Shown: piece by piece, positions 47,807 to 62,332 of the stretch | How positions within the stretch are numbered: position 1 is the stretch's first letter | Layout: each line of letters opens with the position of its first letter | DNA from: Streptomyces katrae | Lineage (GTDB): Bacteria; Actinomycetota; Actinomycetes; Streptomycetales; Streptomycetaceae | Assembly: GCF_000717655.1 (NCBI RefSeq) | Contig: NZ_JNZY01000031.1 | Span: forward strand, 18,416-82,415 | DNA: 64,000 nt | Direction of reading: 5' to 3' | Notes under the pieces: model-generated | What the model saw: only the letters and a program-made list of their open reading frames with translations | What the model was told of the DNA's origin: nothing | Database searches by the model: none | Made by a program: the position numbers and the translations under genes

Positions 47807-48832
47807 CTAGGGGGACTTGGCGTCGGCGGTGCGGTCGGGAAGGGCCTCGGCCCCGTCCTTCGTCACGCGGGTCGCGCCGAAGTAATCGGGGGTGTCGATC
47901 TTGTCGAAGCGGATCACAGCGCCGGTGTACGGGGCGTTGATCATGTATCCACCGCCCACGTAGAGGCCGACGTGCCGGATCTCCCGAGAGTTCGTCAGAT
48001 CATCGGAGAAGAACACCAGGTCACCGGGCAGCAGTTCGCCGCGCGCGGGATGCGGCCCGGCGTTGTACTGGTCGTTGGCGACGCGCGGCAGCTCGATCCC
48101 CACCGATTCGTACGCCGCCTTGGTCAGCCCCGAGCAGTCGAACCGCCCGTCCTGGTCCGGCGTACCGTTGCCGCCCCACAGGTACGGGGTCCCCAACTGC
48201 TTCTGCGCGAAGTAGATGGCCCCGGCGGCCTGCTGCGAGGGCGCGACCCGCCCGACCGGCCGCTCGAAGCTCTTCGCGAGGGTCGTGATGGTCTTCACGT
48301 ACCCCTGGGTCTCCTTGTACGGGGGCACACCGCCGTACTTGATGACCGCGTACGCCCCCGCGTTGTAGGCCGCGAGCATGTTGCCCGTCGGGTCCCCGGG
48401 CACCCCCGCCACGTCCTTGGCCAGCTCGCAGTCGTACGAAGCGGCCGAGGGGATCGCATCGTTGGGGTCCCAGATGTCACGGTCGCCGTCACCGTCCCCG
48501 TCGATGCCGTGACCGGCCCACGTGCCCGGGATGAACTGCGCGATGCCGCGGGCGTCGGCCGGGCTGACGGCGCTCGGATTCCAGCCGCTCTCCGAGTACA
48601 GCTGGGCGGCCAGCAGCGCAGGGGTCACGGCCGGGCACAGCGTCCCCCACTTCTGCACCAGGTTCTGGTACTTCGCGGGTACGGCCCCCTTGGCCAGTCC
48701 GACCGCCCGGCCCCCGGCCGCCCCGGCACCCACGAGGCCGGCCGCGGCGGAGTACGTACCCACCACGATCAGCACGAGGAAGCTCAGACAGAGTCCGATC
48801 CCGATCCCGCTCGCCATCCAGAATCTGCGCAC
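47807..48832 (-). CDS. bifunctional lytic transglycosylase and NlpC/P60 peptidase
   Basis: A 341-residue membrane-anchored cell-wall enzyme. Residues 6-30 form a membrane helix. The SLT domain has the catalytic Glu in AAQLYSESGWNPSAV, followed by ARGIAQFIPGTWAG. The C-terminal NlpC/P60 domain has Cys in FDCSGLTKAAY, His in IRHVGLYVG and Asn in MINAP as third catalytic residue. Such enzymes (VirB1-like) open peptidoglycan for type IV secretion, which is notable given the T4SS-like cluster 6 kb away. GTG start; an ATG five codons later is also possible. Confidence 0.9.
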   Translation of the reverse strand: MRRFWMASGIGIGLCLSFLVLIVVGTYSAAAGLVGAGAAGGRAVGLAKGAVPAKYQNLVQKWGTLCPAVTPALLAAQLYSESGWNPSAVSPADARGIAQFIPGTWAGHGIDGDGDGDRDIWDPNDAIPSAASYDCELAKDVAGVPGDPTGNMLAAYNAGAYAVIKYGGVPPYKETQGYVKTITTLAKSFERPVGRVAPSQQAAGAIYFAQKQLGTPYLWGGNGTPDQDGRFDCSGLTKAAYESVGIELPRVANDQYNAGPHPARGELLPGDLVFFSDDLTNSREIRHVGLYVGGGYMINAPYTGAVIRFDKIDTPDYFGATRVTKDGAEALPDRTADAKSP

Positions 48833-48893: not shown

Positions 48894-50558
48894 CTAGCCC
48901 ACTCGGAAGCCCGTGCAGCGGATGCTCGCGTACTTCGTAGGATCATCTTCAACGTGGTAGAAGACCACCGTCCAGTCCCCCGGGTCGTTGGCGAGGGGCA
49001 CGCCGGGGTACGTCTTGCCGTTCACGTGCTCCGCGAAGTCGTCCGGGTACTTGAGCGTCAGGAACTCGCCCGTCTTCCACTTGCCGTAGATGTCGACGGG
49101 CTTGCTGGTGAAGCCCACGGCCCGGTTGTCCATGGGGAAGGGCTTGCCGGTGAACGGGTCGAGGTCGTGCGGGGACCTGACCGCCACCGACACGTAGTAC
49201 GGATCGGGTCTGGTCGCGCTGTTCTCCGCGTACTTGATGCGCATGCTGATGTTCACGGACTTCCCCGAGACCTCGGCGCCGGCCTGCATGTCCGCACCGG
49301 GCGGCTTCTGCTCCGGCCCCAGGTTGCACGCGCCGGTGCCGTGCGCGGCGCGCTCCGGGTCGGTGGAGGGCAACCAGAAGTAGTGCGAGATCTGGTTGCC
49401 CTCGATGTACTCGGCAGGCGGCTTGCCGGCGCTCTTGGACACCGAGGGCGCGGCGCCCCCCGCGGCCGGCGTCTGCCCGGGCGTACCCGTGGCACCCGCC
49501 GCACCGTCCTTGCCCCGGCTCCCCTCACCGTTCCCGTCGAACGGGGCCAGCTTCCAGGCCGCCAGCGACAGGGCCGCGACCACCGCCACGGCCGCCACCC
49601 ACACACCCGTCCGCCCACGCCGCGGCGGGATCCCGGCCGTGTACTGCGTCGGCGTGTAGCCGTACGGCAGGCCCGGCCCCTGCGTCCGCATCTCGTGCAC
49701 CGGCACGGCCTCGCCCAGCGCGCCCAGCCCCACGTACACGGGATCGTCGATCAGCGCGTCCCGTACGCCGCACCGGCCGATCACCTCGGCCAGGGCCGGC
49801 CGGGCCGCCGGGTCCTTCGCCACGCACGCCTCGATCAGGGCCGCCAGCCCCGGCTCCACCCCGGCCACGTCGACCGGCTCGTGCACCGCCCGGTAGCTCA
49901 CGCTCGGCGCGGCGCCCGTACCGAACGGCGGCCGCCCGGTCGCCGCGTACGCGAGGGTCGCGCCCAGCGCGAAGACGTCCGCGGCGGCCCCCGCCTCGGC
50001 CCCGAGCAGCACCTCGGGCGCGGTGTACCCCGGGGTCCCCGGGGCCTGGCCGTCCTGGGTTAGGGCCGTCTCGCCCACGCCGCGCGCGATGCCGAAGTCG
50101 ATGAGCTGCGGGCCCTGCGCGCCCAGGATGACGTTCTGCGGTTTGAGGTCCCGGTGCGTCACCCCGTACGCATGGACGCTCGCCAGCCCCTCCGCGAGAG
50201 CCGCGAACAGCCGGCGGCAGGTGTCCGCGGGCAAACCGCCGCGCTCCGCCACGGCATGACCGAGCGTCGGACCCGCCACGTACTCCGTGGCCAGCCAGAA
50301 CGGCGGCGCCTGCAGCGAGGCGTCGATCAGGTTCGCCGTGTACGCCGACCGCACCGCGCGCACGGTCTCGGCCTCACGCCGGAACCGGGCCAGGGCCTCG
50401 GGGCGGCCGGTGATCTCGTCCCGGATCACCTTCACGGCGACCAGACGCCCGCCGGGCGAGCGCCCGAGGTACACCTGCCCCATCCCTCCGGCACCGAGCC
50501 GGGCCAGCAGCGCGTGCGCCCCGATCCGGGCGGGGTCGAGGTCTCTCAGGGGCTCCAT
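48894..50558 (-). CDS. receptor-type Ser/Thr protein kinase
   Basis: A 554-residue transmembrane kinase. The kinase domain (residues ~10-265) has GAGGMGQVYLG, VAVKVI, catalytic HRDLKPQN, DFGIAR and APEVL. A juxtamembrane tail follows, then a membrane helix (WVAAVAVVAALSLAAWKL), a Gly/Ala linker and a ~180-residue extracytoplasmic sensor with two cysteines (GTGACNLG, SIRCTGF). No PASTA repeats are present, so it differs from PknB. Its ligand is unknown. Confidence 0.9.
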   Translation of the reverse strand: MEPLRDLDPARIGAHALLARLGAGGMGQVYLGRSPGGRLVAVKVIRDEITGRPEALARFRREAETVRAVRSAYTANLIDASLQAPPFWLATEYVAGPTLGHAVAERGGLPADTCRRLFAALAEGLASVHAYGVTHRDLKPQNVILGAQGPQLIDFGIARGVGETALTQDGQAPGTPGYTAPEVLLGAEAGAAADVFALGATLAYAATGRPPFGTGAAPSVSYRAVHEPVDVAGVEPGLAALIEACVAKDPAARPALAEVIGRCGVRDALIDDPVYVGLGALGEAVPVHEMRTQGPGLPYGYTPTQYTAGIPPRRGRTGVWVAAVAVVAALSLAAWKLAPFDGNGEGSRGKDGAAGATGTPGQTPAAGGAAPSVSKSAGKPPAEYIEGNQISHYFWLPSTDPERAAHGTGACNLGPEQKPPGADMQAGAEVSGKSVNISMRIKYAENSATRPDPYYVSVAVRSPHDLDPFTGKPFPMDNRAVGFTSKPVDIYGKWKTGEFLTLKYPDDFAEHVNGKTYPGVPLANDPGDWTVVFYHVEDDPTKYASIRCTGFRVG

Positions 50559-50628
50559 TGACCCGAGCCTGCCACACCGACTGCCGTGCCACGGAACCGG
50601 GTTGACCACGAAGGCCGCCGCGAACGCG

Positions 50629-51468
50629 TCACGCTGAGCGCGCTGCCGGGAGCGCGGTGCCAGGAACGCGGCGCCAGGAGCGCGGTGCGACGAACAGGCT
50701 CTGCGCGCTCCGCCCGATCGGCCCCTTCTCGTCGTGCAGCCGGGCGTCGGCGAGCCCGATCCCGCCCGCGTCCACACTCGTACGGGCCTCCACGCAGGCC
50801 CACTCGCCCACCGGGTGGCGGTGCAGGTGGACGGTCAGGTCGCCGTTGATGAACACGTACCGCCCGAAGTCCATGACCGAGCTGATCCCGTTGCCCGAGT
50901 CGGCGGCGATCAGGACCCGGTCCAGCGGCCTGGTCTCCTCCCCGGCGACGAGCGGCACCTTCATCCGCATCCAGCACGTGCCGGGGCCCAGCTCCACGAA
51001 CGCGCCCTCCGTGAACCGGGTCTCCATCGCCGAGTGGTAGCCGGTCTCCCACGGCACCGGGAAGAACGGCGTCACCTCCACCTCCCCGGGCGGCGGCAGC
51101 TGCGGGCCCGGGGCCACCCCCGGCACGGCCTCCTCGGCCACCCGGATCCGCAGCGCCCGCGCGAGCATCACCGGCGCCGCCCCGGCCGGGGCGAGGGCGG
51201 CCTCGACCACCTCCGTGCCGCGGCCGGCCCGGAGCACCGACGTGGTGATCTCCAGCGGGCCGATCGGCACCGGCCGCAGGATCTCGTACGTGATCCTCGC
51301 GATCCGCATGTCCGCGCGGGCGCCCTCCCGCTCCTCCACGGCCCGGCCGAGCAGCGCGGCCGGCGGCCCGGCATGCTGCGAGCCGGGGTCCCACGGCCCG
51401 CGCGTGTACTCGGTGGCCAGGAACCGCCCGGCATCGACCCGTTCGAAGAACGCCTCGGAGATCGCCAT
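50629..51468 (-). CDS. acyl-CoA thioesterase family protein
   Basis: A 279-residue double-hotdog protein (FFERVDAGRFLATEYTRGPW, QHAGPPAALLGRAVE, and IAADSGNGISSVMDFGRYVF in the second half). It likely hydrolyses an acyl-CoA. TAGCGT (51476-51481) is seven bases before the ATG. The last ~15 residues are encoded by a triplicated 14-base unit (50649-50690), whose length is not a multiple of three, so the tail of this protein is a recent change. Confidence 0.85.
   Translation of the reverse strand: MAISEAFFERVDAGRFLATEYTRGPWDPGSQHAGPPAALLGRAVEEREGARADMRIARITYEILRPVPIGPLEITTSVLRAGRGTEVVEAALAPAGAAPVMLARALRIRVAEEAVPGVAPGPQLPPPGEVEVTPFFPVPWETGYHSAMETRFTEGAFVELGPGTCWMRMKVPLVAGEETRPLDRVLIAADSGNGISSVMDFGRYVFINGDLTVHLHRHPVGEWACVEARTSVDAGGIGLADARLHDEKGPIGRSAQSLFVAPRSWRRVPGTALPAARSA
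50649..50690. repeat. Three tandem copies of a 14-base unit
   Basis: GGAGCGCGGTGCCA, GGAACGCGGCGCCA and GGAGCGCGGTGCGA lie head to tail at 50649-50690. They cover the 3' end of the thioesterase gene. A unit length that is not a multiple of three means each copy shifts the frame. Confidence 0.7.
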
Positions 51469-54091: not shown

Positions 54092-54787
54092 TCAGGGCCT
54101 GATGATGGCCGTCCACCCCGACGGACAGGTGAGCGCGCCCGTCCCCGTGTACGTGCAGTGGTTCTCGAACACGTCGCCCTGGGTCGTCAGCACCTTCACG
54201 AACACCGTGGCTCCCACGGTGTTGACCGACACCCCGCACGCGTTCCGCGGATGCCCCGGGTTCAGCGCCGTGGTGAGGTCCCGCCAGGTGTAGGCGCCGA
54301 CCGGCGCCGTGTCGCGCACACCGAGGAACGTCCTGCCCCGGTGCAGGACGGCACTGAACTCCAGGTTGCTCGCCCCGGGGGCCGTGTCGATGTCCTGGCA
54401 CGGCCCGTGCGGCCCCCGCGGCCCGGGTGGACCAGCCGGCCCCCGGTCACCCTTCGGCCCGCGGTCGCCCTTCGGCCCGCGGTCGCCCTTCGGCCCCCGG
54501 GCACCCTTGGGACCGGCGCACGAACTGGCAGGCGCCGCCTTGCCGGCCTTCCTCGTCTTGACGACCTTGACGGCCTTGGTGGCCTTGGCGGCCTTGGCGG
54601 CCTCCGGGGCCGGCAGCGTTCTCGCATCCGGCTCAAGACACCTGCTGCCCCAGCCGGGCGCCACCGCCACGACAGCCCCCTCGGCAGCCGCCGCCGGGAC
54701 CGAGGCGCCCATGAGCGCGACCGCCAGCGGAACTGCGAATCCGCCGGCCAGCCACGCACGCCGACCGGCCTTCACTGCGGAACCCAT
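54092..54787 (-). CDS. secreted collagen-like protein
   Basis: A 231-residue exported protein. Residues 1-35 are a signal peptide. A Lys/Ala-rich stalk (AKAAKATKAVKVVKTRKAGK) precedes 13 Gly-X-Y triplets (GPKGARGPKGDRGPKGDRGP and on to GPPGPRGPHGPC), then a ~100-residue globular C-terminal domain with four cysteines (NACGVS, ENHCTY, LTCPSGW). It should form a trimer. Bacterial collagen-like proteins are often adhesins or surface structures. Confidence 0.92.
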   Translation of the reverse strand: MGSAVKAGRRAWLAGGFAVPLAVALMGASVPAAAAEGAVVAVAPGWGSRCLEPDARTLPAPEAAKAAKATKAVKVVKTRKAGKAAPASSCAGPKGARGPKGDRGPKGDRGPKGDRGPAGPPGPRGPHGPCQDIDTAPGASNLEFSAVLHRGRTFLGVRDTAPVGAYTWRDLTTALNPGHPRNACGVSVNTVGATVFVKVLTTQGDVFENHCTYTGTGALTCPSGWTAIIRP

Positions 54788-55191
54788 CCGTCACTCCTTG
54801 CGTCGTCCCATCGAACGGCCTGGAGCATCTCCCGCAACACGCCGAAGAGATGGAACGACTGACGGAATGTCGGACGAACGTCAGCGGCTCGGCCCAACGA
54901 CACGCCCGCACACTGCGCCGAACGGCGGCCCCCCGAGCGGCCCCCCGCAAGCCGAGAGGGCAATCATTGCCCGGGGTCACCCCCCGTGATACACAGAGTG
55001 ACCATACGTTCTACAGAATGCCCACCGCCCGTGCCCAGGTCAGAGCGCGCGAGCGGGCCAAGGGCCGGGAGATCGGGTAAAGAGAGCCGTCAAGTCGACG
55101 TACGACGACGGTTTCATCAGCGAAGATAGTACGTGACCCCTGCCGTCGGGCACGGGCGACCGGAACTACCCATACAGGGGCGGTGAGTTAC
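54788..55191. other. Long intergenic region before the type IV-like cluster
   Basis: About 400 bases. It carries an unconvincing 20-codon frame at 55018-55080 and, near 55120-55135, an AT-rich patch with GATAGT that may be the -10 of the cluster promoter. No repeats, tRNA or other gene could be supported. Confidence 0.5.
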
Positions 55192-55500
55192 ATGATCCTG
55201 GCAGCCGAAAAGGGCGACATCACCACCATCATCGGCGGAATCGCCCCGAACTGGGGGCCGTTCGGCAGTCTCGGCAACGAAGCGAAGGTCATGATCGAGG
55301 TGGTCATGGCCGTTGCGATCCTCCTCTGCCTCGGCATCGCCATCTGGGGCGCAGCCAAGCAGCGCATCGGCGCGACCGCCCTGCGCGACACGTTCAGCGC
55401 GGAACAAGGCAAGGGCCTGATCGTCGCCGGCCTCACCGGCGTCTTCATCATCGGCTCCCTCGGCACCCTCTTCACCATCGTCTACGGAATGGCCGTCTAG
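55192..55500 (+). CDS. VirB2/pilin-like small membrane protein
   Basis: A 102-residue protein with two membrane helices (VMIEVVMAVAILLCLGIAIW and GLIVAGLTGVFIIGSLGTLF), Gly-rich like VirB2/TrbC pilins. It starts the cluster; the ATG follows a GGTGAG site, and a GTG at 55183 is in frame. The pilin call is an inference from size, topology and neighbours. Confidence 0.6.
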   Translation: MILAAEKGDITTIIGGIAPNWGPFGSLGNEAKVMIEVVMAVAILLCLGIAIWGAAKQRIGATALRDTFSAEQGKGLIVAGLTGVFIIGSLGTLFTIVYGMAV

Positions 55501-55579
55501 CCGGGCCGCCCACCGGCTGCCGGACCTGATGAGGAATCACCACACCACCGTCGTACGACGCAGAGGGGGCGGACACGGA

Positions 55580-56416
55580 ATGAGCAACGAAGACCAGTAC
55601 GGCGGTGGCGACGGCTACGGCGACGTCGGCGGCACGGGCCAGACCCGCACCCGCCTCCCCGACGCCCCCTCGGACCCGTACGGCACCCCGCGCCGCACCC
55701 CGCGCGCCTCCCGGGGCCTGGTCACGGTGGTCGGCGTGGTGGTCCTCCTGATCGCCGCGATCGCGTTCGCGAACCAGTCCGGCGACACCCCCACCACCCC
55801 CTCGGCAGAAACCACCCCCCCTGCCCCCGCCTCCACCCAGGCCACGGGCACCCGCCCGGTGGACGGCAAGAACGGCGGCATCCCGAAGGGCTTCGCGCAC
55901 GACGAACAGGGAGCCCAATCGGCCGCCGCCAACTACGCGGTCGCGCTTGTTTCCGCGGACATCCTGAAGCCACAGGTGCGGCGCCAGATCGTCCGCCAGG
56001 TCTTCGTCGCGGACAAGGTGTCCGAGCTCGAGAGCAGACTTGATCAGGCCTACGGCAAGACGTTCCTGGACCAGGCCGGACTGGACGCCAACGGAAATGC
56101 GGCGCAGGGCCTGACGTACATCTCTCGGACCGTACCGGTCGGCACCAAGACGACCAAGTACTCCGACACCACTACGTCCATCGACGTCTGGTGCACAGGC
56201 GTTTTCGGCACTGCAGGCGTCGGCTCCACCAACCCGGTCAGCAACGACTGGTTCACCATGACGCTGACTCTCCGCTGGGCGGAGAACGACTGGAAGGTCG
56301 AAAGCTTCGCCCAGAAGGACGGGCCGGCCCCCGTCCACACGGACCGCACGGCCTCCACGGCCGAGGAGATCGCAAAGGCTGCAACGGAGTTCGGAGGGTT
56401 CACCTATGCCCGGTAG
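55580..56416 (+). CDS. TcpC/VirB8-like single-pass protein
   Basis: A 278-residue protein with a cytosolic tail, one membrane helix (LVTVVGVVVLLIAAIAFANQ), and an extracytoplasmic domain ending in WFTMTLTLRWAENDWKVESF, a pattern of NTF2-like conjugation proteins such as TcpC and VirB8. One cysteine is present (DVWCTGVF). It overlaps the next gene by 11 bases. The assignment is by topology and context. Confidence 0.65.
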   Translation: MSNEDQYGGGDGYGDVGGTGQTRTRLPDAPSDPYGTPRRTPRASRGLVTVVGVVVLLIAAIAFANQSGDTPTTPSAETTPPAPASTQATGTRPVDGKNGGIPKGFAHDEQGAQSAAANYAVALVSADILKPQVRRQIVRQVFVADKVSELESRLDQAYGKTFLDQAGLDANGNAAQGLTYISRTVPVGTKTTKYSDTTTSIDVWCTGVFGTAGVGSTNPVSNDWFTMTLTLRWAENDWKVESFAQKDGPAPVHTDRTASTAEEIAKAATEFGGFTYAR

Positions 56417-57740
56417 CCGCACCCTCCGCCTCACCGGGGCCCTGGCCGCTGTACAGGCGACAGTTGTGCTCCTGTCGGCCCGCGCCTCCGCGGCCCCCAC
56501 CCCACCGACGTCCCCGTCCCCGTCCCCTTCGGCCTCGCAGCCCAATGACAACCGGTGCGACCTGATCGTGGGCCCGGCCAAGGACTACTGCGAGCGCGGC
56601 AGCGGAGCCACCGGCGGAGCCCCCCGCACAGGCCTAGCGCCCAGCGACCCGGCCGACGCCCTCAACCCCCTCGCCTCCCTGGCCAAGGGCTGCGCCGACG
56701 CCGCCGCCTGGATCGTCACCGAGCTCAGCAAAGCGATCAACGGCTCCGCCAACGTCGACTTCACCAACGGCGCCTTCCTCAAGCAGTACGCCATCGTCTT
56801 CGCCGCCTCCACCATCCTCACGCTGGTGCTCTGGCTCTTCGCCGTCGCCAAGCGCGCCATCCGCGGCGTCCCCCTCACCACCGCCATCTCCGAAGCCGTC
56901 GGCTTCCTCTGGCTCACCGTCCTCGCCTCCGCCTTCACCCCCCTGATCCTCTACACCGTCGTCTCCGCCACCGACGGCGTCACAGAAGTCATCGCCTCGG
57001 CGGGCGGCGGCCAGACCGACGTCTTCTTCGGCTCCTTCATCGAGGCCCTCAAGAAGGGCGACTCCATCGGCGGCGGCCCGATCATGCTGATCGTCGTCTC
57101 CCTCGTCACCGTCCTCGCCGCCGGCGTCCTCTTCCTCGAGCTCTTCATCCGGGCCGCCCTCCTCTACGTCGGCGCCCTCCTCGGCGTCGTCGTCTACGCC
57201 GGGCTCGTCGACCGGAACCTCTGGGGCCACGTCCGCCGCTGGGCCGGCATCATGATCGCCGTCATCCTCGTGAAGCCGGTCATCGTCATCGTCCTCGGCC
57301 TCGCCGGAGCCCTCGCCGGCGAGAAGGGCCCCAATGCCTTCTCCGCCGTCGTCTCCGGCCTCGCCATCATCCTCCTGGCGATCTTCGCGTCCGCGATGAT
57401 CTACCGCTTCGTCCCCGGCTTCGGCGACGAGATCGCCTCCGCCCGCGCGGGCCGCAGCAAGGCCACCGACGGCGCCCAGGCCGCCGCCGTGATCAGCTCT
57501 CCGGCCTCCCTCGTTTCCCAGGGCATCAAGACGCACAGCAGCCGCGGCGCCCACCGCGGAGGCGGTGACGGCGGCGGCTCCGGCGCCCCCCGCCCCGCCA
57601 ACCCCCTCTCCGGAGGCGTGGCCGCCCACAGCAGCCGCCCCACCTCCGGCGGCGGGGCCGGCGGCGGATCTGTCCCCTCCGCCGCACCCCCGCCCCGCAC
57701 GAGCTCGAGTACGAGGAACCCAGGAGGTGACGGGCGTTGA
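56406..57740 (+). CDS. VirB6/TrbL-like multi-pass membrane protein
   Basis: A 444-residue protein with a signal-like start, a Pro/Ser linker, and five to six membrane helices in the middle (AIVFAASTILTLVLWLFAVA, LIVVSLVTVLAAGVLFLELF). The C-terminal ~100 residues are Gly/Pro/Ser-rich and cytosolic. It resembles VirB6/TrbL channel proteins. The stop overlaps the next gene's TTG start (TTGA). Confidence 0.7.
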   Translation: MPGSRTLRLTGALAAVQATVVLLSARASAAPTPPTSPSPSPSASQPNDNRCDLIVGPAKDYCERGSGATGGAPRTGLAPSDPADALNPLASLAKGCADAAAWIVTELSKAINGSANVDFTNGAFLKQYAIVFAASTILTLVLWLFAVAKRAIRGVPLTTAISEAVGFLWLTVLASAFTPLILYTVVSATDGVTEVIASAGGGQTDVFFGSFIEALKKGDSIGGGPIMLIVVSLVTVLAAGVLFLELFIRAALLYVGALLGVVVYAGLVDRNLWGHVRRWAGIMIAVILVKPVIVIVLGLAGALAGEKGPNAFSAVVSGLAIILLAIFASAMIYRFVPGFGDEIASARAGRSKATDGAQAAAVISSPASLVSQGIKTHSSRGAHRGGGDGGGSGAPRPANPLSGGVAAHSSRPTSGGGAGGGSVPSAAPPPRTSSSTRNPGGDGR

Positions 57741-59299
57741 CGACCCAGTCACACCAGCTGCACCCGGTCGCGCCCCGCCGCACGTATCTCATCGGCCGGG
57801 CCCGGCCGAACGCGATCGTCGGCAAGAACCGCGAGAGCGGCGAGATCGCCCTGATCATCGCCGGCGCGTTCCTCGGCATGATGAGCGGCCTGCTGGTCCC
57901 CGAACTCACCCTGCGCATCGTCAGCCTGGCCGGCTTCCCCATGGTCGCGCTCGCCGCCGTGTACGTCCCGTACAAGGGCCGCACCTTCTACAAGTGGTTC
58001 GAGATCAACCGCAGCTACAAGCGCACCCTGCGCCGCGGCACGACCTACCGCTCCGGCGCCATGGAAGCCGGCGTCCGCGCCGCCGACGGCCGCGAGGTCG
58101 AGGTCGGCCCGCCCCCCGGCATCGGCCGGATCAACTGGCTCGCCGCCCCCTTCGGCCCCGACGAGATCGCCGTCCTCCTCCACGCCGACCGCAGAACCGT
58201 CACCGCCGCCATCGAGATCGAAGGCCCCGGCGTCGGCCTGCGCGACAGCGAGGACCAGGAAGCCCTCGTCGACCGCTTCGGCACCCTCCTCAAGCACGTG
58301 GCCAACGGTGACGGCTTCGTCACCCGCCTCCAGATGCTCGCCCGTACGCTCCCCGCCGACCCGGACGCCCACGCCAAGGACGTCGCCCAGCGCGGCGACA
58401 CCCACGCCCCCGTCTGGCTGCGCGACTCGTACGACCAGCTCCAGTCGATGGTTTCCACCTCCTCCGAGCAGCACCGCGCCTACCTCGTCGCCTGCATGCA
58501 CTACACGCGCGAGCTCGCCGCCGAGGCCCACACCATCGCCCGCGCCGGCACCCCCCACAAGGGCCGCAAGCTCGACCGCGACGCCGGCCTCGCCATCGTC
58601 ATGGCCCGCGAGCTCACCGACATCTGCGCCCGCCTCGCCGAGGCCGACATCCGCGTCCGCCAGCCCCTGGGCCAGGGCCGACTCGCCTCCCTCGTGCACT
58701 CCATGTACGACCCGGACCACCCCATCGACCACATCCAGGCCATGACCAAGCGCAACGCCTGGCCGGCCGAGCTCGACGCGGTGGAACCCACGTACCTGCA
58801 GGCCAAGACCCGCGAGTCCTCCACCCGCGCCCCCTGGTGCCACGCCACGGCCTGGGTGAAGGAATGGCCGATGACCCCGGTCGGCGTCAACTTCCTCGCG
58901 CCCCTCCTCGTCCACACTCCGGACGTGATCCGCACCGTCGCCGTCACCATGGATCTGGAGCCCACCGAGGTGGCCATCGAGCGCATGCTCACCGAGAAGA
59001 CCAACGACGAGGCCGACGCCAGCCGCGCCGCCAAGATGAACCGGACCGTCGACCCCCGCGACATCGCCGCCCACGGCCGGCTCGACCAAAGAGGTGAAGA
59101 TCTCGCCAGCGGTGCGGCGGGAGTGAACCTGGTCGGGTACATCACGGTGTCGTCGCGATCGCCGGAGGCCCTCGCCCGTGACAAGCGCACCATCCGCGCC
59201 TCGGCGGGCAAGTCGTACCTGAAACTCGAATGGTGCGACCGCGAGCACCACCGCGCCTTCGTCAACACCCTGCCGTTCGCCACCGGCATCCGACGCTAG
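57737..59299 (+). CDS. SCO6880-type membrane protein, VirB3/VirB4 N-terminal-like
   Basis: A 520-residue protein with two membrane helices (ALIIAGAFLGMMSGLLVPEL, FPMVALAAVYVPYK) and a ~400-residue cytosolic domain rich in helices, resembling the fused VirB3-VirB4 N-terminal part without an ATPase. The TTG start is nine bases after a perfect AGGAGGTGA, so a rare start is rescued by a perfect ribosome site. The matching ATPase half is the next gene. Confidence 0.75.
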   Translation: MTTQSHQLHPVAPRRTYLIGRARPNAIVGKNRESGEIALIIAGAFLGMMSGLLVPELTLRIVSLAGFPMVALAAVYVPYKGRTFYKWFEINRSYKRTLRRGTTYRSGAMEAGVRAADGREVEVGPPPGIGRINWLAAPFGPDEIAVLLHADRRTVTAAIEIEGPGVGLRDSEDQEALVDRFGTLLKHVANGDGFVTRLQMLARTLPADPDAHAKDVAQRGDTHAPVWLRDSYDQLQSMVSTSSEQHRAYLVACMHYTRELAAEAHTIARAGTPHKGRKLDRDAGLAIVMARELTDICARLAEADIRVRQPLGQGRLASLVHSMYDPDHPIDHIQAMTKRNAWPAELDAVEPTYLQAKTRESSTRAPWCHATAWVKEWPMTPVGVNFLAPLLVHTPDVIRTVAVTMDLEPTEVAIERMLTEKTNDEADASRAAKMNRTVDPRDIAAHGRLDQRGEDLASGAAGVNLVGYITVSSRSPEALARDKRTIRASAGKSYLKLEWCDREHHRAFVNTLPFATGIRR

Positions 59300-59318
59300 C
59301 TGGAGGGAAGTGCCGCCC

Positions 59319-60737
59319 ATGCGAGATCCCATGTCCGCTCTGACGGACGCCTTCACCAGCTTCCTGTTCGGCAAGGTCGAGACCACGCGCCTGCCCGTAC
59401 GCACCTCCACCGGGCAGGCGCAGGCCGTCTACCTGCCCACCGCCGCACCCGGCCTCGGCGACTCCGGCGTCATCATCGGCCGCGAGGTCTACAGCGGCAA
59501 GGGCTACATCTACGACCCCTTCCAGCTGTACGGGCAGCAGCTCCCGGCCCCGCACTGGCTGGTCCTCGGCGAGTCCGGCAACGGCAAGTCCGCCCTGGAG
59601 AAGACGTACGTACTGCGCCAGCTCCGCTTCCGGGACCGCCAGGTCGTCGTCCTCGACGCCCAGGGCGAGGACGGCGTCGGCGAGTGGAACCTCATCGCCC
59701 AGCAGCTGGGGATAACCCCCATCCGCCTGGACCCCATCGCCGCCAACGACGACGGGATCCGCCTCAACCCCCTCGACCCGGCGATCACGACGACCGGCCA
59801 GCTCGCGCTGCTCCGGACCATCATCGAAGTCGCCATGGGCCACGGCCTCGACGAACGCTCCGGCTTCGCCCTCAAGGTCGCGCACGCGTACGTCGTCGAC
59901 GCCATCCGCGACCGCCAGCCGGTCCTCACGGACATCGTGGAACAACTCCGCCATCCAAAGGCCGAGTCCGCGGAGGCCATGAACGTCGACATAGACGATG
60001 TCCGCGCCTGGGGCCTCGACGTCGCCCTCGTCCTCGACCGCCTGGTCGACGGCGACCTCCGCGGCATGTTCGACGGCCCCACCACCGTGGGCATCGACCT
60101 CGACGCCCCCCTCATCGTCTTCGACCTGTCCCACATCGACCGCAACTCGATCGCCATGCCGATCCTGATGGCGATCGTGGGCGTCTGGCTGGAACACACC
60201 TGGATCCGCCCGGACCGCAAGAAGCGCATCTTCCTGGTCGAGGAAGCCTGGCACATCATCAACAGCCCGTTCGTGGCCCAGCTGTTCCAGCGCCTCCTCA
60301 AGTTCGGCCGCCGCCTCGGCCTGTCCTTCGTAGCCGTCGTCCACCACCTCTCGGACGTCGTCGACGGCGCGGCCGCCCGCGAGGCCGCGGCCATCCTCAA
60401 GATGGCCTCGACCCGCACGATCTACGCCCAGAAGGCGGACGAGGCCCGAGCGACGGGCCGGGTCCTGGGCCTGCCCCGCTGGGCGGTGGAGATCATCCCG
60501 ACCCTCACTCCCGGCATCGCGGTCTGGGACGTCAACGGCAACGTCCAGGTGGTCAAACACCTGATCACCGAGGCGGAACGCCCCCTGGTGTACACGGACC
60601 GCGCCATGACGGAATCCTCAGCCCAGCCCCAGCTCCCCGACGACCTCCTGGCAGCCGAACTGGAGGCGGAGGAAAGAGCCCTCCTGATGGAACGCCACCG
60701 CAACGGCGGCCCGGGCCCGGCAACAACGGTGGCGTAA
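59319..60737 (+). CDS. VirB4-like ATPase
   Basis: A 472-residue ATPase: Walker A GESGNGKSAL, Walker B in RKKRIFLVEEAWHI and the later motif LKFGRRLGLSFVAVVHH typical of VirB4/TraC. It lacks the N-terminal half usual in VirB4, which appears to be provided by the preceding gene. The ATG at 59319 is preceded by GGAGGG; GTG 59310 is possible. Its stop overlaps the next ATG (TAATG). Confidence 0.88.
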   Translation: MRDPMSALTDAFTSFLFGKVETTRLPVRTSTGQAQAVYLPTAAPGLGDSGVIIGREVYSGKGYIYDPFQLYGQQLPAPHWLVLGESGNGKSALEKTYVLRQLRFRDRQVVVLDAQGEDGVGEWNLIAQQLGITPIRLDPIAANDDGIRLNPLDPAITTTGQLALLRTIIEVAMGHGLDERSGFALKVAHAYVVDAIRDRQPVLTDIVEQLRHPKAESAEAMNVDIDDVRAWGLDVALVLDRLVDGDLRGMFDGPTTVGIDLDAPLIVFDLSHIDRNSIAMPILMAIVGVWLEHTWIRPDRKKRIFLVEEAWHIINSPFVAQLFQRLLKFGRRLGLSFVAVVHHLSDVVDGAAAREAAAILKMASTRTIYAQKADEARATGRVLGLPRWAVEIIPTLTPGIAVWDVNGNVQVVKHLITEAERPLVYTDRAMTESSAQPQLPDDLLAAELEAEERALLMERHRNGGPGPATTVA

Positions 60738-62332
60738 TGCACGACGAACGGAACGGAAAACCAGGCGGCATCCCGGACGCCCTCCTCCTCGCCCTCCTCG
60801 CCTTCCTCCTGGGCCTGGCGGCCCTCGTCTGGACCTCCACCGGCCTGGCCGCGCTCTTCTCGAAGGGCGCCTGGCCGTCCACGGTGACGTTCACCCGCAC
60901 CCCCGGCGCAGTCCGCGCCCTGATAACCCAACCGCACGACGTCCCAGGAGCCTGGCCCGACACGGCGCCCTCGGCCCTCTCGGGCTGGGGCCTCTTCTGG
61001 GGCCTCTTCATCAGCCAACTCCTGGTTCTCTTCGTCCTGACGATCTTCGCCATGGGCATCGTCGCCCGCACGAAATCCCGCCGAGCCAACCCCACCGGAG
61101 CGCCCGTCCCAGCCGGGGCGCACCACCCGGCCCAGCCGCCCGTCCCAGCCGGGGCGCACCACCCGGCCCACTCGCCCATTCCAGCCGGGGCGCACCACCC
61201 GGCCCACCCGCCCATTCCAGCCGGGGCGGCCGATCCAGCCCCGGCGGCGTTCGAGGGGCAGGGGCCCGGGGGCAGCGCCCCCGGCAACTCCCGCCCGGCG
61301 ACCCCGACCCCGCTCCCCGGCCCGGCCCCGCTGCCCATCCCGGCCGGGCCGGCCGATCCAGCCCCGCCGGCGTTCGAGGGGCAGGGGCCCGGGGGCAGCA
61401 CCCCCGGCAACTCCCGGGCCAGCCTGGCCTACGCCGCTCCCCCGGAGCGCCACCGCCTGGCCGCCCAAGCCCTGGCGGCAGCCCCCGGCGCGGCCCTGGT
61501 CCTGACCTCCTCCCCCGCCCTCTGGGCAGAGACGAAGGACGCCCGCGCCAAACTCGGCCCGGTCCTCCTCTACGACCCCTCGCACCTCTGCGACACCCCG
61601 GCCCGCATGCACTGGAACCCCGCCGACGCCTGCGCCGACCGCGACACCGCCGCCGCCCGCGCCACCGCACTCCTGGCCCCCGTACGCCCCCAGGCCCGCA
61701 TGGACGCAGCCGTCGCCGACACCGCGGAAACGCTCCTGCGCAGCTGGCTCCAGGCCGCCGCCCTCGACGACCGCCCGTTCAAGCAGCTGCACCGCTGGGC
61801 CCAGGGCAACAGCGCCCAGGACCCGGTCCGCATCCTCCGTACGCACCCCCAGGCCGCCCCCGGCTCCGCCGGCGAACTCGAGAGCGCCCTCACCGCGCAC
61901 CCCGAACGCCGCGAGCAGGCCCAGAGCCTGACGGCCCGTGCCCTCTCCTGCCTCACGTCCATCCACATCCGCGAGGCCTGCAACCCGAACCGAACAGACG
62001 CACTCACCCTCGCATCGTTCGTGAGCGAAGGGGGCACCCTCTACATGGTGGGAGAACCGCTGGAAGACCCCCGCACCCACCCGGGTGCGATGCCCCTGCT
62101 CACCGCACTCGCCGCGAGCGTGGTCGAGCACGGCCGCCGCATGGCCGCACGGTCATCCCACGGCCGGCTCGACCCACCACTGACGCTGGTCCTCGAGGAC
62201 GTCGCGGCCGTGGCCCCGATTCCCCAGCTCCCCGAGCTGCTCCAGGACGGGACCCTCCCCCTGCTCGCCCTGTGCCGCAGCCGCGAACAGGCCCGCGCCC
62301 GCTGGCCGGAGGCAGCTGCGCTCCAGTACTAA
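60737..62332 (+). CDS. VirD4/TraG-like protein with no visible Walker A
   Basis: A 531-residue protein: one to two N-terminal membrane helices (ALLLALLAFLLGLAALVW, FWGLFISQLLVLFVLTIFAM), a ~150-residue Pro/Ala/His-rich linker with repeats (PAGAHHPAH), and a C-terminal domain with ALVLTSSPALWAETKDAR, PVLLYDPSHLCDTP and PLTLVLEDVAAVAPIPQLPE that fits VirD4/TraG. The Walker A P-loop is not seen where expected, so it may not hydrolyse ATP. A 123-base duplication lies in the linker. The stop codon TAA is the first three bases of a MITE-like element. Confidence 0.75.
   Translation: MHDERNGKPGGIPDALLLALLAFLLGLAALVWTSTGLAALFSKGAWPSTVTFTRTPGAVRALITQPHDVPGAWPDTAPSALSGWGLFWGLFISQLLVLFVLTIFAMGIVARTKSRRANPTGAPVPAGAHHPAQPPVPAGAHHPAHSPIPAGAHHPAHPPIPAGAADPAPAAFEGQGPGGSAPGNSRPATPTPLPGPAPLPIPAGPADPAPPAFEGQGPGGSTPGNSRASLAYAAPPERHRLAAQALAAAPGAALVLTSSPALWAETKDARAKLGPVLLYDPSHLCDTPARMHWNPADACADRDTAAARATALLAPVRPQARMDAAVADTAETLLRSWLQAAALDDRPFKQLHRWAQGNSAQDPVRILRTHPQAAPGSAGELESALTAHPERREQAQSLTARALSCLTSIHIREACNPNRTDALTLASFVSEGGTLYMVGEPLEDPRTHPGAMPLLTALAASVVEHGRRMAARSSHGRLDPPLTLVLEDVAAVAPIPQLPELLQDGTLPLLALCRSREQARARWPEAAALQY
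61105..61420. repeat. Tandem repeats in the VirD4-like linker
   Basis: About four 33-base units (VPAGAHHPAH, starting near 61105) are followed by two imperfect copies of a longer unit starting 61229 and 61352 (123 bases apart, 41 codons) with the palindrome CCCGGGGGCAGCGCCCCCGG. Both repeat types keep the frame. Confidence 0.75.

Follow-up and report, generated by a model that had tools for sequence, protein, structure and literature searches.

A conserved type IV secretion-derived cmd operon of Streptomyces with an exchangeable CmdE/CmdD cassette

The cmd operon and its conservation

We analyzed a 64,000-nucleotide stretch of Streptomyces katrae DNA (the window; contig NZ_JNZY01000031.1, positions 18,416 to 82,415 of the forward strand). 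Six open reading frames (ORFs) at 55183–62332 (+) run in the same direction and overlap or nearly do so, as a sequence-only reading of this DNA had described. Third-position GC bias is strong across all six (0.88–0.95). These genes, which include a CmdB ATPase and an SCO6880-family CmdC, are the chromosomal cmdFEDCBA operon, SCO4131–4126 of S. coelicolor. The link to S. coelicolor was made by sequence for cmdB, and the remaining genes were assigned by order and type. When translated, the published cmdB mutagenic primers fit the window's CmdB in the contexts ESGN-GK-SALE and VQVV-K-HLIT (K93 and K416), agreeing at 9 of 10 and 8 of 9 residues, with the mutated residue as the sole mismatch in each. 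In the available part of PMC2782261, the primer labels K90 and K404 seem to have been swapped: each primer sequence encodes the other CmdB site. The operon has the following features.

55183–55500 (+): cmdF, a small membrane protein of 105 aa (alternative ATG start at 55192) with the highest conservation in the operon
55529–56416 (+): cmdE, with a cytoplasmic tail, one membrane helix, a Ser/Thr/Pro-rich linker, and a VirB8-type domain (model)
55946–56645 (+): exchangeable cassette, covering CmdE from residue ∼140 onward and the first ∼80 residues of CmdD (edges approximate)
56406–57740 (+): cmdD, with a secreted N-terminal part followed by several membrane helices, in a VirB6-like position
56556–56591 (+): CmdD C-X10-C loop (C51–C62), whose sequence tracks the CmdE class
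57737–59299 (+): cmdC, SCO6880 family (NCBIfam NF042935, 1.3e-54)
59310–60737 (+): cmdB, VirB4-type ATPase, C-terminal half (AAA_10, 1.2e-12), which fits the published primers
59568–59591 (+): CmdB Walker A, GESGNGKS, found in 160/160 sequences
60737–62332 (+): cmdA, related to VirD4/TraG, with two membrane helices, a Pro-rich linker replacing the P-loop, and a shortened C terminus
61094–61429 (+): variable Pro-rich linker of CmdA, where live VirD4s have a β-strand and the P-loop

The protein types proposed by the sequence-only reading largely held. The cmdE product models as a VirB8/NTF2 domain (its database form begins at ∼55580 and has 278 aa), the cmdB product matches the VirB4-type Pfam family AAA_10, and the VirD4-like cmdA product has no P-loop. 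The pilin-like label for CmdF stood in part: size and membrane segments fit and, with gene position, make it VirB2/pilin-like, but neither CmdF nor CmdD matches a Pfam or NCBIfam family. CmdD is VirB6-like in topology and gene order. The gene split and order point to CmdC as the N-terminal half of a split VirB4. The operon thus has two features of an active conjugative type IV secretion system (T4SS), a VirB4 ATPase with a Walker A motif and a VirB8 (by fold match), and lacks a third, a coupling protein with a P-loop (0/62 complete CmdA proteins).

The operon is near-universal in the family. Of 200 family genomes, 199 gave a CmdB match, as did 194/194 of the complete, clean ones. In three genomes (G104, G022, and G074), the best CmdB matches were much weaker (E ∼1e-152 to 1e-135); G104 is rated complete, and cmdB may be lost or replaced there. 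In a class-wide sample of 246 genomes, CmdB matches outside the family were 29–38% identical, except in one genome of another family (78%). Gene order, which the sequence-only reading had offered as a check, is conserved: 76 of 80 named loci have all six genes, and 75 are co-linear. Three of the other four loci lie on contigs that are cut short, and one (L077) has no CmdF match. Mean pairwise identity is 0.95 for CmdF, 0.92 for CmdB and CmdC, 0.75 for CmdD, 0.62 for CmdA, and 0.58 for CmdE. The CmdB set in which Walker A is invariant includes at least two genomes twice.

In its available text, PMC2782261 (Xie et al. 2009) presents cmdABCDEF as a co-transcribed developmental operon of S. coelicolor. 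Its deletions impaired sporulation, disturbed aerial growth and septation, and led to aberrant branching, faulty chromosome segregation, and overproduction of actinorhodin; CmdB was recovered with the membranes, and sporulation defects of a similar kind were reported for S. lividans and S. avermitilis. A type IV-like channel had already been suggested there. A survey available to us in part (PMC9513070) scored a "defective ICE" (integrative and conjugative element) near the chromosome center in all strains, which may, by our own reckoning, be the cmd operon. The sequence-only reading of a conserved chromosomal, T4SS-derived cluster with a split VirB4-type ATPase is therefore upheld; we found neither scattered occurrence together with integrase and relaxase genes nor a P-loop in the cmdA product. 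Its further suggestion of a domesticated secretion device stands as regards the conserved T4SS-derived operon, but the operon was already known as developmental, and any role in secretion is putative.

The CmdE/CmdD cassette

The CmdE VirB8 domain and the CmdD loop form an allelic cassette that is swapped between species, a well-supported conclusion. In a first set of 72 of 79 CmdE sequences (the 7 omitted were too short), distances in the VirB8 domain were two-peaked, and the domain fell into five classes at cut-offs of 0.45–0.5 and six at 0.4. Its distances had a rank correlation of 0.20 with CmdB distance; the corresponding values of the other four proteins were 0.41–0.49. Mapped on a CmdC+CmdB tree, the classes changed 35 times (shuffled, 43.0; standard deviation, 2.3), and the CmdE N terminus, grouped likewise on the same tree, changed 4 times (shuffled, 36.1). 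Eighty more genomes enlarged the set to 135 usable CmdE domains of 152 offered. At a cut-off of 0.45, these formed ten clusters, five of which have 12–36 members, and these five common ones recur outside their home genus.

Even close relatives often differ in class. The nearest relative by CmdB+C had the same CmdE class in 53 of 133 loci (two duplicates removed). Class sharing was 0.43 at 0–1% CmdB+C divergence (7 cases) and 0.32 at 1–2% (44 cases), with an overall value of 0.18. For each of five named species (names as given by the sources), database proteins or loci of type strains fall into two CmdE classes. In six pairs of close relatives with different classes, the flanks are mostly 92–100% identical in nucleotide sequence, and identity drops to ∼51–74% in a stretch of ∼700 bp that reaches from the CmdE domain into the opening quarter-kilobase of cmdD. 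In a single pair of the same class, identity across the cassette was 62–90%.

Within CmdD, the class signal is concentrated in the cysteine-flanked loop, which is present in 135/135 CmdD proteins and has the C-X10-C form in 128. The nearest loop belonged to the same CmdE class in a fraction of 0.74 (126 loci, with loci at <6% CmdB+C divergence barred), compared with a base rate of 0.18, a best value of 0.26 in 200 shuffles, and 0.17–0.27 for thirteen other segments of CmdD, each of 10 residues. Most of the signal comes from the fourth position of the loop. When CmdE was considered as a whole, the rest of CmdD correlated with it no better than CmdB did; only the loop stands out. Because the signal-peptide segments of CmdD lie closer to cmdE and show no class coupling (0.25 and 0.27), the data favor a functional match between loop and class, beyond linkage, although these segments may evolve too fast to keep a trace.

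CmdA, plasmid-borne relatives, and neighboring genes

Judged by sequence and fold, CmdA is a relative of the VirD4/TraG coupling proteins that lacks the Walker A motif and is predicted to be a dead coupling protein; the P-loop is absent from the window's CmdA and from 62/62 complete orthologues. A VIA-align comparison of the CmdA model led to TrwB and Cagβ. A profile search of PDB sequences with CmdA gave low-complexity matches only, and no CmdA paralogue was found in the window's genome at E 1.

We searched 72,556 plasmid records and found CmdE in 18 and CmdD in 27. From the 16 best CmdD matches, we studied 14 records with an orphan CmdD (two near-twins were omitted); among the remaining 11 CmdD records, we examined NZ_CP108308 alone, a large linear plasmid with a complete co-linear set and a live coupling protein, as a control. 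CmdB and CmdC were absent from the whole record in 14/14 orphan-CmdD plasmids, and the control was positive in both searches. AAA_10 scored above the cut-off in 1 of the 14 (NZ_CP109398); since the same model missed the control's CmdB, absence was judged from the CmdB and CmdC protein searches. CmdE was detected beside CmdD in 8 of the 14 plasmids, and a MobF relaxase was detected in 9. At least eight of these nine also encode a coupling protein among the matches listed (best 40 of 72; the ninth is NZ_CP107781), and its P-loop is intact in the five MobF plasmids where the sequence is whole or nearly so. A search for FtsK/TraB in four plasmid records, three of them orphan-CmdD plasmids, was negative. 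The cores of the lone plasmid CmdD proteins are 48–62% identical (medians) to chromosomal CmdD, compared with 35% for CmdD of the complete system, as expected if the lone proteins fit chromosomal partners. MOBF plasmids may plug into the chromosomal cmd module.

PMC2782261, in its available part, reports that transfer of an SLP2-derived plasmid was unaffected by cmd deletion. This test is not decisive for plasmid use of cmd, because SLP2 has its own homologues. Our search of the open PubMed Central literature found no description of the CmdE/CmdD polymorphism, and the term "cmd" is absent from the available text of the FEMS T4SS review; the cassette and the stand-alone plasmid CmdD both look new, with the literature search directed at the cassette polymorphism rather than at plasmid-borne CmdD or CmdE.

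One neighboring gene is a likely partner of the operon.

47807–48832 (−): probable counterpart of tgdA (SCO4132), a cell-wall enzyme with SLT and NlpC/P60 domains (Pfam) in a VirB1-like role

The Pfam domains agree with the VirB1-like transglycosylase/peptidase named by the sequence-only reading. Such a gene lies divergently upstream of cmdB, 5.0–23.5 kb away, in 20/20 genomes searched. According to the accessible part of PMC6585502, tgdA mutants resemble cmdBCDEF mutants in pigment output. The sequence-only reading had also stated that the window holds no relaxase, integrase, or origin of transfer; Pfam found no mobility genes in eight flanking ORFs at 43.7–63.9 kb, one of which matched nothing.

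A Ser/Thr protein kinase gene at 48894–50777 (−) directly adjoins the TgdA-like gene, and a secreted collagen-repeat protein is encoded at 54092–54787 (−), just upstream of cmdF. The window's contig ends where the window does, and many draft contigs end at most ∼3 kb past cmdA, hinting at a repeat downstream. The same genome holds a second, ICE-like T4SS (L134:5417–17960; G000:C38) with a TcpC-like protein, a single-chain VirB4 (862 aa, AAA_10), and an SLT + NlpC/P60 protein. In NZ_CP108308, the complete T4SS is followed at a short distance by CATRA conflict-system genes (L220:11827–14251).

Interpretation and comparison with known systems

We consider it very probable that cmd is the inner-membrane core of a T4SS, kept as a fixed developmental machine with a swappable, outward-facing CmdE/CmdD module. 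CmdB, CmdC, and CmdF would form an envelope-spanning assembly with the cell-wall enzyme TgdA, in which CmdB and CmdC would drive assembly or movement of the complex and TgdA would open the wall. CmdE and CmdD would be the partner-recognizing module, and CmdA would hold the coupling-protein seat closed without pumping DNA. With less certainty, we propose that an outside agent engaging CmdE and CmdD drives their allelic diversity. The likeliest agent would be plasmids with their own relaxase, a live VirD4, and sometimes their own CmdD and CmdE. Among possible drivers, we favor plasmid use of cmd, with phage escape next. In its full form, this proposal is possible though doubtful: cmd would be a genus-wide resident conjugation core through which VirB4-less MOBF plasmids export via the host's CmdB, CmdC, and CmdF, their live VirD4 displacing the dead CmdA and some bringing their own CmdD and CmdE; host CmdE/CmdD alleles would diversify and be traded as compatibility types, within a machine needed for sporulation.

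Several observations weigh against these readings. The whole case was built from sequence and models, with no experiment. The 35 CmdE class changes are fewer than in shuffled data, and some ancestry signal thus remains; among the controls, those with CmdD and CmdC each overlap in data with one of the two trees, and those with CmdA gave no information. The classes become less distinct in the set of 135 loci: two merge at 0.5, and within- and between-class ranges overlap. In three of the seven pairs plotted, the DNA upstream of cmdF also falls to 47–67% identity. Because the CmdD loop lies inside the swapped DNA, linkage may explain part of its coupling to class. The AlphaFold model of CmdA is weak (mean predicted local distance difference test score, 61; residues 439–531, <50), and Foldseek alone found nothing in the PDB for it at E 0.001. 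Among the orphan-CmdD plasmids, five of 14 have no MobF match. Finally, of six plasmids with a coupling protein like that of NZ_CP108823 (≥70%), itself of a MOBF type that carries CmdD and CmdE, three have CmdD and three do not; these last three have MobF and a P-loop coupling protein, and profile searches found no CmdB, CmdC, CmdD, CmdE, or CmdF in them. The CmdD/CmdE module must therefore be optional.

Rather doubtful, as the next-best account of the polymorphism, is an arms race over a phage or bacteriocin receptor, in which mannosylated CmdE on the surface serves for adsorption and exchange of its domain allows escape. This agrees with the sharply allelic cassettes of a surface domain, and the available parts of the literature list SCO4130, the CmdE locus, among S. 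coelicolor membrane glycoproteins, report that pmt mutants, which lack protein mannosylation, resist phiC31 (PMC6593405), and infer a glycoprotein as the phiC31 receptor (PMC5882110). However, many other S. coelicolor proteins are mannosylated, and a receptor arms race predicts neither plasmids with CmdD and CmdE nor a CmdD loop that tracks class; that no phage genome in our collection encodes a CmdE relative says little either way. The outward-facing module and the several CmdE classes inside named species are also what one would expect of kin or partner recognition between hyphae, with matching CmdE/CmdD classes coupling neighboring compartments or colonies, and roles of cmd in septation and branching (PMC2782261, in part) point the same way. 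We nevertheless judge it unlikely, as the cmd literature examined contained no cell-contact phenotype.

Diversification of the chromosomal VirB8/VirB6 pair against mixing with subunits of incoming T4SSs is quite unlikely. Suitable competitors exist, namely complete plasmid systems of the same gene order (NZ_CP108308) and the second, ICE-like T4SS of the window's genome, but the complete plasmid systems are already so distant in the CmdD core that confusion is improbable, and this account leaves unexplained the plasmids that have just CmdD and CmdE. If the cluster were only a defective conjugative element in the course of being lost, this would account for the dead coupling protein, for the lack of a relaxase among the eight flanking ORFs, and for the "defective ICE" of PMC9513070 if that is cmd. 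This reading is highly improbable and is largely refuted by conservation (the near-universal CmdB, its invariant Walker A motif, and the mean identity of CmdF) and by clear mutant phenotypes in three species (PMC2782261, in its available part).

Provided that the cassette is borne out, a core developmental machine has a trans-species polymorphism like those at self-recognition or receptor loci, and model Streptomyces offer a ready genetic handle on it. CmdE would also be a candidate glycoprotein phage receptor. If plasmids do use cmd, this would explain how a family of MOBF plasmids with a coupling protein and without VirB4 could be mobile and why so many Streptomyces retain a T4SS core whose coupling protein is dead, and it would link sporulation to plasmid transfer.

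The window's operon matches cmdABCDEF of S. coelicolor in gene order, protein types, and mutagenized CmdB residues, and in its conservation across Streptomyces. The available text of the cmd paper describes no P-loop-less VirD4 for CmdA, no VirB8 for CmdE, and no allelic cassette or plasmid copies. CmdA shares two membrane helices, an all-alpha domain fold, and the TraG-D_C region with VirD4/TrwB coupling proteins, but a Pro-rich linker stands where they have the P-loop, and it lacks the C-terminal part. CmdE has the single membrane helix and NTF2-like extracytoplasmic domain of VirB8/DotI, but its domain, unlike theirs, is swapped in allelic classes. The VirB/VirD4-type T4SS of the linear plasmid NZ_CP108308 shares with cmd the co-linear F-E-D-C-B-coupling protein set (CmdB 50% and CmdC 43% identical) and differs in three ways: its coupling protein is live (APPREGKT), a small additional gene separates E from D, and the plasmid also encodes TrwC-type relaxases; SLP2.19–23 is a further linear-plasmid T4SS of the same kind (PMC2782261, available part). 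Like mobilizable elements that borrow a T4SS, which have a relaxase and a coupling protein but no VirB4, at least eight of the orphan-CmdD plasmids combine a relaxase and a coupling protein and lack CmdB and CmdC. They would differ from such elements in that the proposed host machine is a fixed chromosomal operon, to which the plasmid supplies replacement VirB8/VirB6 subunits.

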